Assembly: GCA_040289475.1 (NCBI GenBank)
Contig: PSLF01000005.1
Coordinates: 1 to 49,445 of the forward strand
Direction: 5' to 3'
Length of the DNA: 49,445 nt
Source of the DNA: Acidimicrobiia bacterium
Lineage (GTDB): Bacteria > Actinomycetota > Acidimicrobiia > ATN3 > PSLF01
The notes below the pieces were generated by a model. It made no database searches, was not told where the DNA came from, and saw only the letters and a list, made by a program, of their open reading frames with translations. Positions 12,762-36,239 of this stretch are shown here, in pieces. The position numbers were made by a program, and so were the translations under genes. Every line of letters begins with the position of its first letter. Within the stretch, counting starts at the first letter, position 1.

Positions 12762-12785
12762 ATAGGAGCTAGCTCCCGAGGTTGG

Positions 12786-12791
12786 TAAAAT
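12786..12791 (+). promoter_or_regulatory. Candidate -10 box for the fluoride-riboswitch transcript
   Basis: TAAAAT is one mismatch from the -10 consensus. Transcription would start at about 12797-12799, which is exactly the 5' edge of the riboswitch aptamer. No good -35 box is visible 17 bases upstream. The agreement of predicted start and aptamer edge is the main support. Confidence 0.45.
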
Positions 12792-12795
12792 TTTT

Positions 12796-12843
12796 GCGGC
12801 GATGGAGTCCGCCCCCAACTGCCCTGTGCTGATGACTCCTAGC
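12796..12843 (+). ncRNA. Fluoride riboswitch (crcB motif)
   Basis: The aptamer senses fluoride ion and controls the downstream fluoride exporter. The segment reads GGCGATGGAGTCCGCC at 12798-12813 and GCTGATGACTCCTAGC at 12828-12843, with AACTGCCC between, closely matching the structurally known Thermotoga petrophila aptamer. Visible pairings are helix P1, GGCG (12798-12801) with CGCC (12810-12813), and the long-range helix GGAGTC (12804-12809) with GACTCC (12834-12839). The internal stem-loop is very short here (GC...GC). It sits 29 bases before crcB, the usual partner gene, which makes the call firm. Confidence 0.93.
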
Positions 12844-12863
12844 AGATCGAAGCGTTTTAGGAG
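12836..12863 (+). promoter_or_regulatory. Alternative hairpin masking the crcB Shine-Dalgarno
   Basis: CTCCTA (12836-12841) can pair perfectly with TAGGAG (12858-12863), the crcB ribosome-binding site, across a 16-base loop. Four of those bases (12836-12839) are also needed for the ligand-stabilised aptamer helix with 12804-12809. The two structures exclude each other, so fluoride binding should free the ribosome-binding site. The pairing is seen; the switching is inferred. Confidence 0.6.
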
Positions 12864-12871
12864 GTGTCAGC

Positions 12872-13255
12872 ATGGGCTATCTCTTATACGTCGCCGTCGG
12901 GGGTCTAGTCGGCTCTGTTTTGAGGTATCTCGTCAACCTAGCGGTGATGCGGGTTGGAGCCCTTGGCGGATTTCCTGTGGCGACCGCATGTGTCAACATC
13001 TTGGGCTGCATGGCGATCGGGGTGGCCTCTCACCTCGCTGCAAATGGGGGGATCCCCTCTCCGGCAGCGAGAACCTTCATATTCGCGGGCCTTTTAGGTG
13101 GTTTCACAACTTTCTCGGCATTCGCTAACGAGACAGGAATCCTTTTTAGCGATTCAGCTCCCTCTCTCGGGCTGTTGAACATTTTGGTAAACGTTGGAGG
13201 TGGGCTGAGTGCCGTGTGGATTGGAAGAGCTTTAGCTTCGATTTTTTTTGAATGA
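12872..13255 (+). CDS. crcB: Fluoride ion channel CrcB/FluC
   Basis: Small dual-topology membrane channel that exports toxic fluoride. The 127 residues have four hydrophobic helices and the family signatures GGLVGSVLRY (10-19), VNILGCMAIG with N42 (41-50), and GLLGGFTTFSAF (73-84), whose Phe and Thr/Ser residues line the fluoride path. The length is normal for a Fluc protomer, which works as an antiparallel dimer. Only one copy is seen; some Gram-positives carry two paired genes. TAGGAGG at 12858-12864 gives a good ribosome-binding site. The fluoride riboswitch directly upstream confirms the function independently. Confidence 0.95.
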   Translation: MGYLLYVAVGGLVGSVLRYLVNLAVMRVGALGGFPVATACVNILGCMAIGVASHLAANGGIPSPAARTFIFAGLLGGFTTFSAFANETGILFSDSAPSLGLLNILVNVGGGLSAVWIGRALASIFFE

Positions 13256-13396
13256 GACCATTTCTTAGTCTTGTTCGAATCGTTGTAGTGTCGGGAGGCA
13301 GTGTTGTGCCCAGGTTGGCTCGCTGGTGGTTCTGGGCCGTCATGCAAGCCGACCGGAGCTGCTTTTTCTTGCTGGCCCAACCCTTTGGGAGGTGAT

Positions 13397-14566
13397 ATGA
13401 CGCCAGTAATCTACGAGCCTCTAGAAGTCGCTGCCGCTGCTTTGTTGGAGGAGAAAAGGGACCTAAGTTTCGACGAGGCGATGGCCGTAGCTGAGCTGCC
13501 CGACGAAGCGCTTCCGTCCATAGTTGCCCTCGCTCACGCGGTTCTCATGGATTCGTGTGGACCGGGCGTTGCGCTCGAGTCCATTATCTCGGCGAAGACA
13601 GGCGCATGCCCAGAAGACTGCACTTTTTGTTCGCAGAGCGCTCACTACAGTACTCCGATCAAGGTTCATCCGATGCTCGATGCTGACACACTGCTGGCTG
13701 CTGCTCTGGACTCTCAACGGTTGGGAGCGACTCACTTCTGCATTGTAGTTGCGGTGCGCGGCCCCGACAGGAGACTGTTCGACAAAGTTCTCGAGGCTGT
13801 AGCTAAGATAAGGTCCGAGACTTCGATTGAGTTGGCCTGTTCGTTAGGGATTCTCACACGCGATCAAGCCGTCTCTTTAGCCGAGGCGGGGGTTGCGACG
13901 TACAACCACAATCTGGAGACTGCTCGCTCGTTCTTTCCCAATATCTGCACGACGCACACGTACGAAGAGAGAGTTATGACATGTCTATATGCAAAAGAGG
14001 CGGGGATGGACTTGTGTTCAGGCGGGATTCTGGGCATGGGGGAAAGTCTTCGTCAACGAGTGGAGTTCGCATTCGAACTGCGGAACCTTGATCCAGTAGA
14101 AGTCCCTATCAATTTTTTGGATCCCAGACCGGGGACGCCCTTAGCTGGAATGCCGCTTGTGCGTCCTACGGACGCCGTGCGAGCCATTGCCCTCTTCAGA
14201 CTTGTCATGCCAGAGGTTCTACTTAGGTATGCAGGCGGTAGGGAGGTCGTTTTGCGTGAGCTGCAAGCGTATGGGCTAGTAGCCGGAGTCAATGGACTTA
14301 TCGTAGGAAACTATCTGACCACACTGGGGCGTCCTGCAAACGAAGACCTTCAGCTTCTCGAGGATTTGGGGAGGCCAGCAATTAGCCAGGATTCGATGTC
14401 CTCGCGCATCAAGTCGGAGAAGAACCGTAGGATGCGTCATTTGAGGGTGGAACCTCGAAAGGAGGATCTCGTGACGTCCGAAGGCGTAGTTCTTGTCGAG
14501 CCGGGAAGGCCGGTGCGCTACATTCCGCCGGGGATCCCTGCTTCGACCAGCCAAACGGAGAGGTAG
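13397..14566 (+). CDS. bioB: Biotin synthase
   Basis: Radical-SAM enzyme that inserts sulfur into dethiobiotin to make biotin. The SAM-cluster motif CPEDCTFC (C71, C75, C78) follows SAKTGA, as in known BioB. The [2Fe-2S] cysteines are also conserved: one in THFCIVVAVRGP, one in LACSLG, one in LCSGGILGMG. With the ATG at 13397 (GGGAGGTG at 13387-13394) the protein is 389 residues; an upstream in-frame start at 13301 is not needed. E. coli BioB has 346, so a C-terminal extension of about 40 residues (from about HLRVEPRKEDL on) is extra. It is the first gene of a bioBAFD operon, with 13 bases before bioA. Confidence 0.95.
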   Translation: MTPVIYEPLEVAAAALLEEKRDLSFDEAMAVAELPDEALPSIVALAHAVLMDSCGPGVALESIISAKTGACPEDCTFCSQSAHYSTPIKVHPMLDADTLLAAALDSQRLGATHFCIVVAVRGPDRRLFDKVLEAVAKIRSETSIELACSLGILTRDQAVSLAEAGVATYNHNLETARSFFPNICTTHTYEERVMTCLYAKEAGMDLCSGGILGMGESLRQRVEFAFELRNLDPVEVPINFLDPRPGTPLAGMPLVRPTDAVRAIALFRLVMPEVLLRYAGGREVVLRELQAYGLVAGVNGLIVGNYLTTLGRPANEDLQLLEDLGRPAISQDSMSSRIKSEKNRRMRHLRVEPRKEDLVTSEGVVLVEPGRPVRYIPPGIPASTSQTER

Positions 14567-14579
14567 CACACGATCTGTG

Positions 14580-15944
14580 ATGAAACCTAACAGCCGCACT
14601 CAGCGGCTCCAGCATAGCGACAAGCGTTACTTGTGGCACCCCTTCACCCAGATGAAGGAGTGGCTCGAGAGCGAGCCTTTGGTCATCGAGTCCGCCGAAG
14701 GATGTCGTCTCCTAGATTCTGAGGGTAATTCATATCTCGACGGCGTCTCGTCGCTTTGGTGCAATGTCCATGGACACCGACATCCTCGGCTCGACGCAGC
14801 ACTACTGGGGCAGGCTAACAAAGTTGCTCACTCCACACTCCTGGGACTTACCAACCCCCCGGCCATCGAGCTTGCGGAGAGGCTCGTTGAATTGGCCCCC
14901 GAGGGGTTGACTCGGGTTTTTTACTCGGAGAACGGTGCGTCTGCGGTTGAAGTAGCTCTGAAGATGGCTTTCCAGTACTGGCGCAATCTCGGCGAGAAAC
15001 GACGATCCCGCTTCGTGGCACTGGAACTCGCCTACCACGGAGACACTCTCGGAGCTGTGAGTGTGGGGGGTATAGAGGAGTTTCACGCTATATACAAGCC
15101 TATGCTTTTCGAGGTGCTGAGAGCTCCGACGCCCTATGTTTACCGTTCGACCCTCGGCTCCGGCGATCCGGAAAGCTGCCGGGACGCGTGCCTTTCGAGA
15201 CTGGAAGCGACTCTAGAGGCCCACCAAGAAGAAGTTGCCGCTGTCATAGTCGAGCCTTTGGTACAGGGGGCAGCAGGAATAGTCGTCCACCCCGATGGAT
15301 TTCTTGCAGGCGTCAGGGACCTGTGTGACAGGTATGGAACCTTACTGATCTGCGACGAGGTCGCTACAGGCTTTGGAAAGACCGCTCGCATGTTCGCTTG
15401 CGAGCACGAGTCGGTCTCTCCTGACCTGATGGTTCTCGGCAAAGGGATAACTGGAGGATATCTTCCACTGTCGGCAACCATGTGTACCGAGGCGATATTC
15501 GAAGCGTTCCTCGGTCCCTACGAGGAGATGAAGACTTTCTTCCATGGGCACACCTACTCTGGAAATCCGTTGGCATGTGCGGTGGCTATTGCCAGTTTGG
15601 ACGTGTTCGTAGAAGAACGAGTCTTGCAGTCCTTACCGGCAAAGGTGACAGCTCTCGCAGACAAGCTAGCCAGGTTCGATAGCCATCCCAATGTGGGAGA
15701 CGTCCGGCAGAAAGGGCTCATGGCAGGTGTGGAACTGGTCAGAGATAAGCTCACCAAAGACCGCTTCGACATCTCGCAGCGGGTAGCGTGGCGGATCTCT
15801 ATGGCGGCGAGAAAGCGCGGGGTCGTAGTAAGGCCCTTGGGAGACGTACTCGTTTTCATGCCGCCGCTCTGCATCTCAGAGCCAGAAATCTCCGAGCTTG
15901 TCGAAGCTGTGTATGATTCGCTCGAAGAGGTGCTCCCTGTATGA
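14580..15944 (+). CDS. bioA: Adenosylmethionine-8-amino-7-oxononanoate aminotransferase
   Basis: PLP-dependent class III aminotransferase; it transfers the SAM amino group to KAPA, giving DAPA, the third step of the biotin ring pathway. With the ATG at 14580 it is 454 residues. The BioA-specific N-terminal motif YLWHPFTQM is present, along with ENGASAVEVALKMA for PLP-phosphate binding, CDEVATGFGKT with the PLP-binding Asp, and the Schiff-base lysine in LGKGITGGYLPLSAT. An adjacent in-frame GTG at 14577 is possible. A frame open back to 14493 overlaps bioB and adds a non-homologous leader. The stop overlaps bioF by 4 bases. Confidence 0.95.
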   Translation: MKPNSRTQRLQHSDKRYLWHPFTQMKEWLESEPLVIESAEGCRLLDSEGNSYLDGVSSLWCNVHGHRHPRLDAALLGQANKVAHSTLLGLTNPPAIELAERLVELAPEGLTRVFYSENGASAVEVALKMAFQYWRNLGEKRRSRFVALELAYHGDTLGAVSVGGIEEFHAIYKPMLFEVLRAPTPYVYRSTLGSGDPESCRDACLSRLEATLEAHQEEVAAVIVEPLVQGAAGIVVHPDGFLAGVRDLCDRYGTLLICDEVATGFGKTARMFACEHESVSPDLMVLGKGITGGYLPLSATMCTEAIFEAFLGPYEEMKTFFHGHTYSGNPLACAVAIASLDVFVEERVLQSLPAKVTALADKLARFDSHPNVGDVRQKGLMAGVELVRDKLTKDRFDISQRVAWRISMAARKRGVVVRPLGDVLVFMPPLCISEPEISELVEAVYDSLEEVLPV

Positions 15945-17182
15945 CTTCTCTCGAGCGCACTAGCCCCACGGCGTGGATAGGCGCTGAACTAGCTTCGCTC
16001 AAGGAACAATCATTGCTTCGCGTATCGTACGAGATCGAGCACCGCTTTGGATGCGAGATCTCCTTGGGCGGAAGAAAGCTGTTGCTCGCCGCTTCCAATG
16101 ACTACCTAGGGCTGTCAACCGATCCACGTGTGCGGGAGGCCGCAGCCGATGCAGCAAGGCGGTGGGGCGGTGGCTCGTCGGCATCCCCGCTGGTCTCTGG
16201 GTATAGCGAGCTGCAGAGCCAGTTAGAAAGTGAAATTGCATCCTTCAAGGGATGCGATGACTGTGTGGTCTTTTCCTCCGGATATCTGGCTAACATCGGT
16301 ACCATTACAGCGCTCGTGGGCAAAGGAGACGTCGTCTTTTCGGATGAACTAAACCATGCCTCCATCATCGACGGCTGCCGGTTGTCCGGGGCGGAGATCC
16401 GGATTTTCCGCCACTCTGACCCAGAGAACCTTGACACTCTTGCGAAAAAGGGCGGCTATCGTCGAGGTCTGATCGTGACCGACGGGGTTTTTTCAATGGA
16501 TGGCGACTTGGCGGATCTGCCGGCTATCACAGAGGTCGCCGAGCGCTATTCCCTCATGACAATGGTGGACGATGCCCATGGGACGGGTGTGGTGGGTCCG
16601 ACGGGGAGAGGGACCGCGGAGGCGACGGGGCTCGAAGGCCAAATCGACATAGTCATGGGAACGTTGTCAAAAGCGCTCGGGTCCGCGGGCGGATTCGTAT
16701 GCGGCTCGAGCGATATCGTGTCTTGGATTAGAAACCGTGCTCGCTCTTTCATCTTCGATACTGCTCCTGCCCCAGCAGCACTGGGAGCGGCTCGCGTCGC
16801 CCTTAGGATCGCAGAAGAAGAGGAGTGGCGCCGCGAGCGGCTGCGCAGCATGAGAGATGAGATCACACGCTCTCTTAGCGCCGAGGGCATCGAGCTACCA
16901 GCCTTGGCGGCTGCCATCGTTCCTCTCGTAATAGGCGATGCTGAACGTGCACTACGCGCGGCTGATTACCTCCGGGAGTTGGGAGTGTTCGCTCCTGCGA
17001 TTCGTCCTCCTTCAGTTCCCGAAGGCACCTCTCGCATAAGACTTAGCCTTATGGCCACATTTGACAACTCCCATAGGGAACTGCTCGTTACGGCAGTAAC
17101 AGAACTCGCACGAAGGTACATGACCGAGCCAGCGGCTCCCGTGTGTGGCGCTACCGGGCTCAAAGGAACCAATACATCTTGA
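15941..17182 (+). CDS. bioF: 8-amino-7-oxononanoate synthase
   Basis: PLP-dependent alpha-oxoamine synthase condensing pimeloyl-ACP or pimeloyl-CoA with L-alanine, the first committed step of biotin ring formation. The 413 residues show SNDYLGLS near 50, ELNHASIIDGCRLSGAE (about 130-146), VDDAHGTGVVG with the PLP Asp, and the lysine in GTLSKALGSAGGF that binds PLP. The length is close to the family norm of about 385-400. Start and stop overlap both neighbours, indicating tight coupling. No bioC, bioH or bioW is seen here, so the source of the pimeloyl thioester lies elsewhere. Confidence 0.95.
   Translation: MTSLERTSPTAWIGAELASLKEQSLLRVSYEIEHRFGCEISLGGRKLLLAASNDYLGLSTDPRVREAAADAARRWGGGSSASPLVSGYSELQSQLESEIASFKGCDDCVVFSSGYLANIGTITALVGKGDVVFSDELNHASIIDGCRLSGAEIRIFRHSDPENLDTLAKKGGYRRGLIVTDGVFSMDGDLADLPAITEVAERYSLMTMVDDAHGTGVVGPTGRGTAEATGLEGQIDIVMGTLSKALGSAGGFVCGSSDIVSWIRNRARSFIFDTAPAPAALGAARVALRIAEEEEWRRERLRSMRDEITRSLSAEGIELPALAAAIVPLVIGDAERALRAADYLRELGVFAPAIRPPSVPEGTSRIRLSLMATFDNSHRELLVTAVTELARRYMTEPAAPVCGATGLKGTNTS

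Positions 17183-34291: not shown

Positions 34292-36239
<1,948 letters not shown>

Follow-up and report, generated by a model that had tools for sequence, protein, structure and literature searches.

The crcB (fluC) gene described here is very probably governed by a fluoride-responsive switch that turns its translation on. The window, the whole stretch of 49,445 nt that was analysed, carries a fluoride riboswitch aptamer, and crcB/fluC, a fluoride-resistance gene, follows it directly, starting at ATG 12872. The 3' strand of the aptamer pseudoknot overlaps a segment that can pair instead with the Shine-Dalgarno (SD) sequence of the gene. A translational ON switch had been proposed by an earlier, sequence-only reading of this DNA, and this proposal is supported by the high covariance score of the aptamer, by a competing pairing that is tuned in relatives and by the lack of a U-run after the competing hairpin. 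We infer that fluoride acts on the translation of crcB. The features are collected in Table 1.

Aptamer, promoter and gene context

The RF01734 family was matched over its full length (model positions 1-64) at 12789-12848 (+), and this is the sole match to the family in the genome. The aptamer had been called clear at the outset, with a covariance-model search suggested as the check; Rfam cmscan returned a high score (46.5 bits against a curated cut-off of 34), and the positions given earlier for the four pairing strands (GGAGTC 12804-12809, GACTCC 12834-12839, CTCCTA 12836-12841 and TAGGAG 12858-12863) were all right. In the Rfam alignment the conserved core is kept (GAUG 12801-12804 and CUGAUG 12829-12834), and A12832 and U12840 occupy what we take to be the positions of the A40-U48 linchpin (T. 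petrophila numbering). From its sequence we infer that the aptamer 12789-12848 binds fluoride.

Table 1. Features of the crcB leader and gene in the window
Feature	Position	Strand	Basis
Candidate -10 box TAAAAT, preceded by TGG 12783-12785 (extended -10)	12786..12791	+	Sequence, phylum spacing
Fluoride riboswitch aptamer, RF01734	12789..12848	+	Rfam cmscan 46.5 bits, E 7.9e-10
P1 stem, 12798-12801/12810-12813	12798..12813	+	Rfam alignment, sequence
Pseudoknot 5' strand GGAGUC, within P1 loop	12804-12809	+	Rfam alignment, sequence
Internal stem (P3 in literature naming), GC/GC, loop CCUGU; 12821-12822 with 12828-12829	12821..12829	+	Sequence, Rfam alignment
OFF hairpin 5' arm: GCCC, bulged U12825, GUGCUGAU, GA, CUCCUA	12821..12841	+	Folding
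Pseudoknot 3' strand GACUCC, ON-state partner of 12804-12809	12834..12839	+	Sequence, Rfam alignment
Shine-Dalgarno TAGGAGG, 7 nt upstream of ATG	12858..12864	+	Sequence
OFF hairpin 3' arm: UAGGAG (SD), GU, GUCAGCAU, GGGC; AUG 12872-12874 inside	12858..12877	+	Folding
crcB/fluC, fluoride efflux channel, 127 aa	12872..13255	+	NCBIfam TIGR00494 85 bits, cut-off 80.45
AUCUCUUA, codons 3-5 of crcB, can pair with SD when aptamer folded	12879..12886	+	Folding

Two details of the aptamer stand out against a comparison set of 92 distinct RF01734 loci from the same phylum (with labels in the range L001-L118, the locus in the window being L001). The phylum is taken to be Actinomycetota, since the genome has five WhiB genes and, of 14 control genomes, Corynebacterium glutamicum alone contains this family. 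The six pairs of the pseudoknot, which joins the P1 loop to the 3' tail, are all Watson-Crick. Such wobble-free pseudoknots were found at 14 of the 92 loci, and a U-G wobble is present at 60; position 1 in the window is a C-G pair. The internal stem between the pseudoknot strands is present and consists of two base pairs, as the sequence-only reading had estimated. A stem this short occurs in three of the 92 aptamers, and the usual length elsewhere in the phylum is 4-5 bp.

The candidate -10 box ends 6 nt upstream of P1; a scan for a two-hexamer sigma-70 match gave none. The same spacing recurs in the phylum: at 49 of 92 loci a hexamer TANNNT has its last base 6-10 nt upstream of P1, against a background of 2.8% in windows farther upstream, and the pattern occurs at one or more loci in 31 of 37 families. 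This regularity strongly supports the earlier suggestion that transcription begins at the aptamer edge, here and across the phylum, and the predicted transcript start in the window would be at about 12797-12799, the foot of P1. A -10-like box placed exactly at the aptamer edge throughout a phylum is a simple and testable regularity.

Downstream of crcB, on the same strand, lie bioB, bioA and bioF (13301-17182); the likely start of bioB is ATG 13397, preceded by GGGAGGTG, rather than GTG 13301. The window also contains a TPP riboswitch (RF00059, 34048-34197; 56.4 bits against a cut-off of 54.3), one arm of which is extended by a long insertion; it precedes thiC (34295-35692; NCBIfam ThiC, 689.7 bits).

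Predicted hairpin over the Shine-Dalgarno sequence and start codon

The segment CUCCUA (12836-12841), which overlaps the pseudoknot strand GACUCC, is exactly complementary to UAGGAG (12858-12863) of the SD. The two pairings had been described as mutually exclusive, and both are exact in the sequence. The six-base SD pairing thus stood, but the extent of the OFF state had been understated: the six pairs are the tip of a hairpin of 18 standard pairs, three times longer, in which 12821-12841 pairs with 12858-12877 and the AUG is enclosed. Beyond the SD, GUGCUGAU (12826-12833) pairs with GUCAGCAU (12866-12873), and the outermost pairs join GCCC (12821-12824) to GGGC (12874-12877); the only irregularities are the bulge at U12825 and a GA/GU internal loop. 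The minimum energy of 12824-12880 (57 nt) is -24.4 kcal/mol (z -3.9; none of 200 shuffles was equal), and the SD and AUG are nearly fully paired in the folding ensemble. When the aptamer, SD and AUG were held fixed and only the spacer and codons were shuffled, an equally long flanking helix arose in 0.09% of shuffles, and 0.05% of them reached as low an energy, values that are somewhat optimistic since this test was devised after the helix had been seen. Extension of the helix past the SD by chance is unlikely (p about 0.001), and the OFF helix of the window ranks fifth strongest among the 92 loci of the phylum.

A hairpin of this kind might act mainly on transcription, through intrinsic or Rho-dependent termination, with translation affected secondarily. 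Many fluoride riboswitches use terminators, and at about 20 of 93 loci in the phylum the competing helix is immediately followed by a U-run; moreover, RNA whose translation is blocked can become exposed to Rho. At the crcB leader, however, the terminator scan gave no intrinsic terminator, and the OFF hairpin ends within the coding sequence, followed by UAUCUCUUAUAC and no U-run, so that a translational platform fits rather than an intrinsic terminator. The helix also covers exactly the SD and the AUG, and we consider control mainly at the level of transcription improbable.

The competing pairing in relatives

The consensus 3' end of the aptamer, ...GACUCCUAC, resembles the anti-SD of 16S rRNA, so that six matching bases opposite a strong SD are only half a surprise. 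Because the consensus CUCCUA is intrinsically SD-like in this sense, complementarity to the SD taken alone is weak evidence for a switch. Covariation of the competing pairing had been named as a check on the translational reading, and it was addressed with a swap test, in which the pairing energy of each strand with its own downstream 60 nt was compared with that of strands from other loci. Own strands paired better than swapped ones over all loci (z -6.0), at the 63 loci that lack a U-run (z -4.3, p 5e-5), at the 26 of these that also lack the commonest pseudoknot (z -3.7, p 1e-4) and with each of 31 families represented by a single locus (median z -4.25). The fixed 60-nt window was chosen after a first version, which used longest-ORF starts, had given z 2.1 and no significance without the commonest pseudoknot, a weak result attributable to poor start calls in G+C-rich DNA. 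The locus of the window was itself grouped with the U-run loci, owing to GUUUUAGG between the aptamer and the SD, and the z of -4.3 therefore derives entirely from relatives; GUUUUAGG lies upstream of the SD, inside the loop of the OFF hairpin, and is not a terminator tail. By eye, altered pseudoknots with matching ribosome sites were seen as GGCUUC/GGAAGCU in L024 and L043, GACCCC/GGGGUC in L036 and AACUCC/GGAGUU in L034.

Masking of the ribosome site follows a different pattern from pairing strength. The SD was predicted to be masked with 63% of own and 62% of swapped strands, and the start codon with 45% and 44%, respectively. The competing pairing is thus maintained in relatives and tuned in strength locus by locus, and masking is largely inherent in the aptamer. 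The crcB leader in the window pairs a little more strongly with the most frequent strands from other loci (-21.0 to -22.3 kcal/mol) than with its own strand (-19.8 kcal/mol), so its variable pseudoknot positions show no tuning peculiar to this locus. Burial of the start codon as a lineage-specific adaptation was considered and dropped: 28 of 58 loci show burial, swapped strands do so equally often, and no claim is made. Compensation, in which a wobble-free pseudoknot or a short internal stem would go with a longer OFF helix, was not seen across the 92 loci; the internal stem showed no significant relation to pairing (p 0.38 and 0.47), and pairing at loci whose position 1 lacks the wobble is somewhat weaker rather than stronger.

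No close relative carrying a fluoride riboswitch was found, either in the family of the window or in the rest of its order, so that the comparative support stops short of the 18-bp helix itself. Among named genomes, the CrcB proteins closest to that of the window share 33-52% identity with it and belong to other phyla. The order is represented by one other genome, whose crcB (L031, 1200-1560) lacks a fluoride riboswitch and directly follows an ORF that by eye resembles a LuxR-type response regulator. In several genomes of the phylum (L012, L026, L048, L051 and others) at least two fluoride riboswitches lie near one another, in some cases pointing in opposite directions a few hundred bases apart.

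Proposed mechanism and comparison with known fluoride riboswitches

In the proposed mechanism, the transcript would begin at the foot of P1, and fluoride, together with Mg2+, would be bound while the aptamer emerges, holding GACUCC in the pseudoknot with GGAGUC. The ribosome-binding site would then be made without a competitor. Without fluoride, GACUCC would be displaced, along with the conserved GCUGAU and the two strands of the internal stem, into the 18-bp hairpin with the SD, the spacer and the start codon, and translation would be blocked. Nearest-neighbour energies, which exclude tertiary and Mg/fluoride terms, are about -30 kcal/mol for the OFF hairpin, about -8.3 kcal/mol for the pseudoknot helix and about -6.4 kcal/mol for P1. 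Given the large margin by which the hairpin exceeds the free aptamer in stability, a completed leader should settle in the OFF state unless fluoride has locked the aptamer beforehand, and the decision would probably be one-way and fall during transcription; the switch would then be kinetic, with fluoride having to bind during transcription. The folded aptamer may leave an obstacle of its own in the ON state, as the SD can then form eight pairs with codons 3-5 (AUCUCUUA; -9.2 kcal/mol with the aptamer blocked), which would place the AUG in the loop or close to it; the region does not significantly exceed shuffled sequences in stability (z -1.4).

The same energies could mean that the aptamer is intact and the switch weak or broken, with either the pseudoknot staying folded or the hairpin staying OFF and crcB barely responding to fluoride. 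The C-G pair at position 1 corresponds to the poorly switching I1 variant of B. cereus, in which the U-to-C change gave anti-termination of 75% without and 94% with fluoride and nearly abolished switching (PMC11077080). We judge this highly improbable, however, since the conserved core is retained and wobble-free pseudoknots are natural elsewhere in the phylum; a longer OFF helix could offset the stronger pseudoknot, though no such trend appears across the set. Beyond the translational ON switch as such, a fuller account can be sketched tentatively, and is less likely than not to hold: that a fluoride switch with the wobble-free type of pseudoknot that disables the B. cereus switch works here thanks to an OFF strand that enters at the eroded two-pair stem and zips an 18-bp helix through the SD and start codon, in a one-way, transcription-coupled, translational device of about 80 nt.

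A translational mechanism is already known for the fluoride riboswitch class. Terminators overlapping the crcB motif have been seen before (Weinberg 2010; PMC2864571), the riboswitches of P. syringae and B. pseudomallei have been treated as translational and used as controls, with pseudoknot nucleotides reported to covary with the downstream hairpin (PMC13273304), and a translational fluoride riboswitch has been mentioned for archaeal hyperthermophiles (PMC11077080). Less work has been done on translational fluoride riboswitches than on those with terminators, and a compact natural example whose pseudoknot has a C-G pair at the position found to matter in B. cereus offers a clean test of the balance between competing helix and pseudoknot.

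The P. syringae and B. pseudomallei riboswitches share the aptamer family with the window, show no fluoride-dependent termination and have a platform that acts on translation; relative to them, the window has the 18-bp OFF helix over SD, spacer and AUG and the 2-bp internal stem, in a comparison made at the level of aptamer family and expression platform. The transcriptional crcB riboswitch of B. cereus likewise shares the 3' strand of its pseudoknot between the aptamer and a competing helix (PMC8752731, PMC11077080), and its aptamer folds before it is invaded, an invasion that fluoride prevents by locking the A-U linchpin (PMC11077080). The B. cereus riboswitch works through an intrinsic terminator, and its position 1 is a U-G wobble, whereas the window has no U-run and a C-G pair. 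The RF01734 members of the phylum (L002-L118) resemble the window in the promoter box at the aptamer edge and have a pseudoknot strand tuned to a downstream ribosome site or terminator; they differ in their usual stem of 4-5 bp, in a U-G wobble at most loci and in OFF helices that are mostly weaker. Against these systems, the riboswitch of the window is a well-formed example with unusual details, namely a wobble-free pseudoknot, a short internal stem and a long helix over the start codon.
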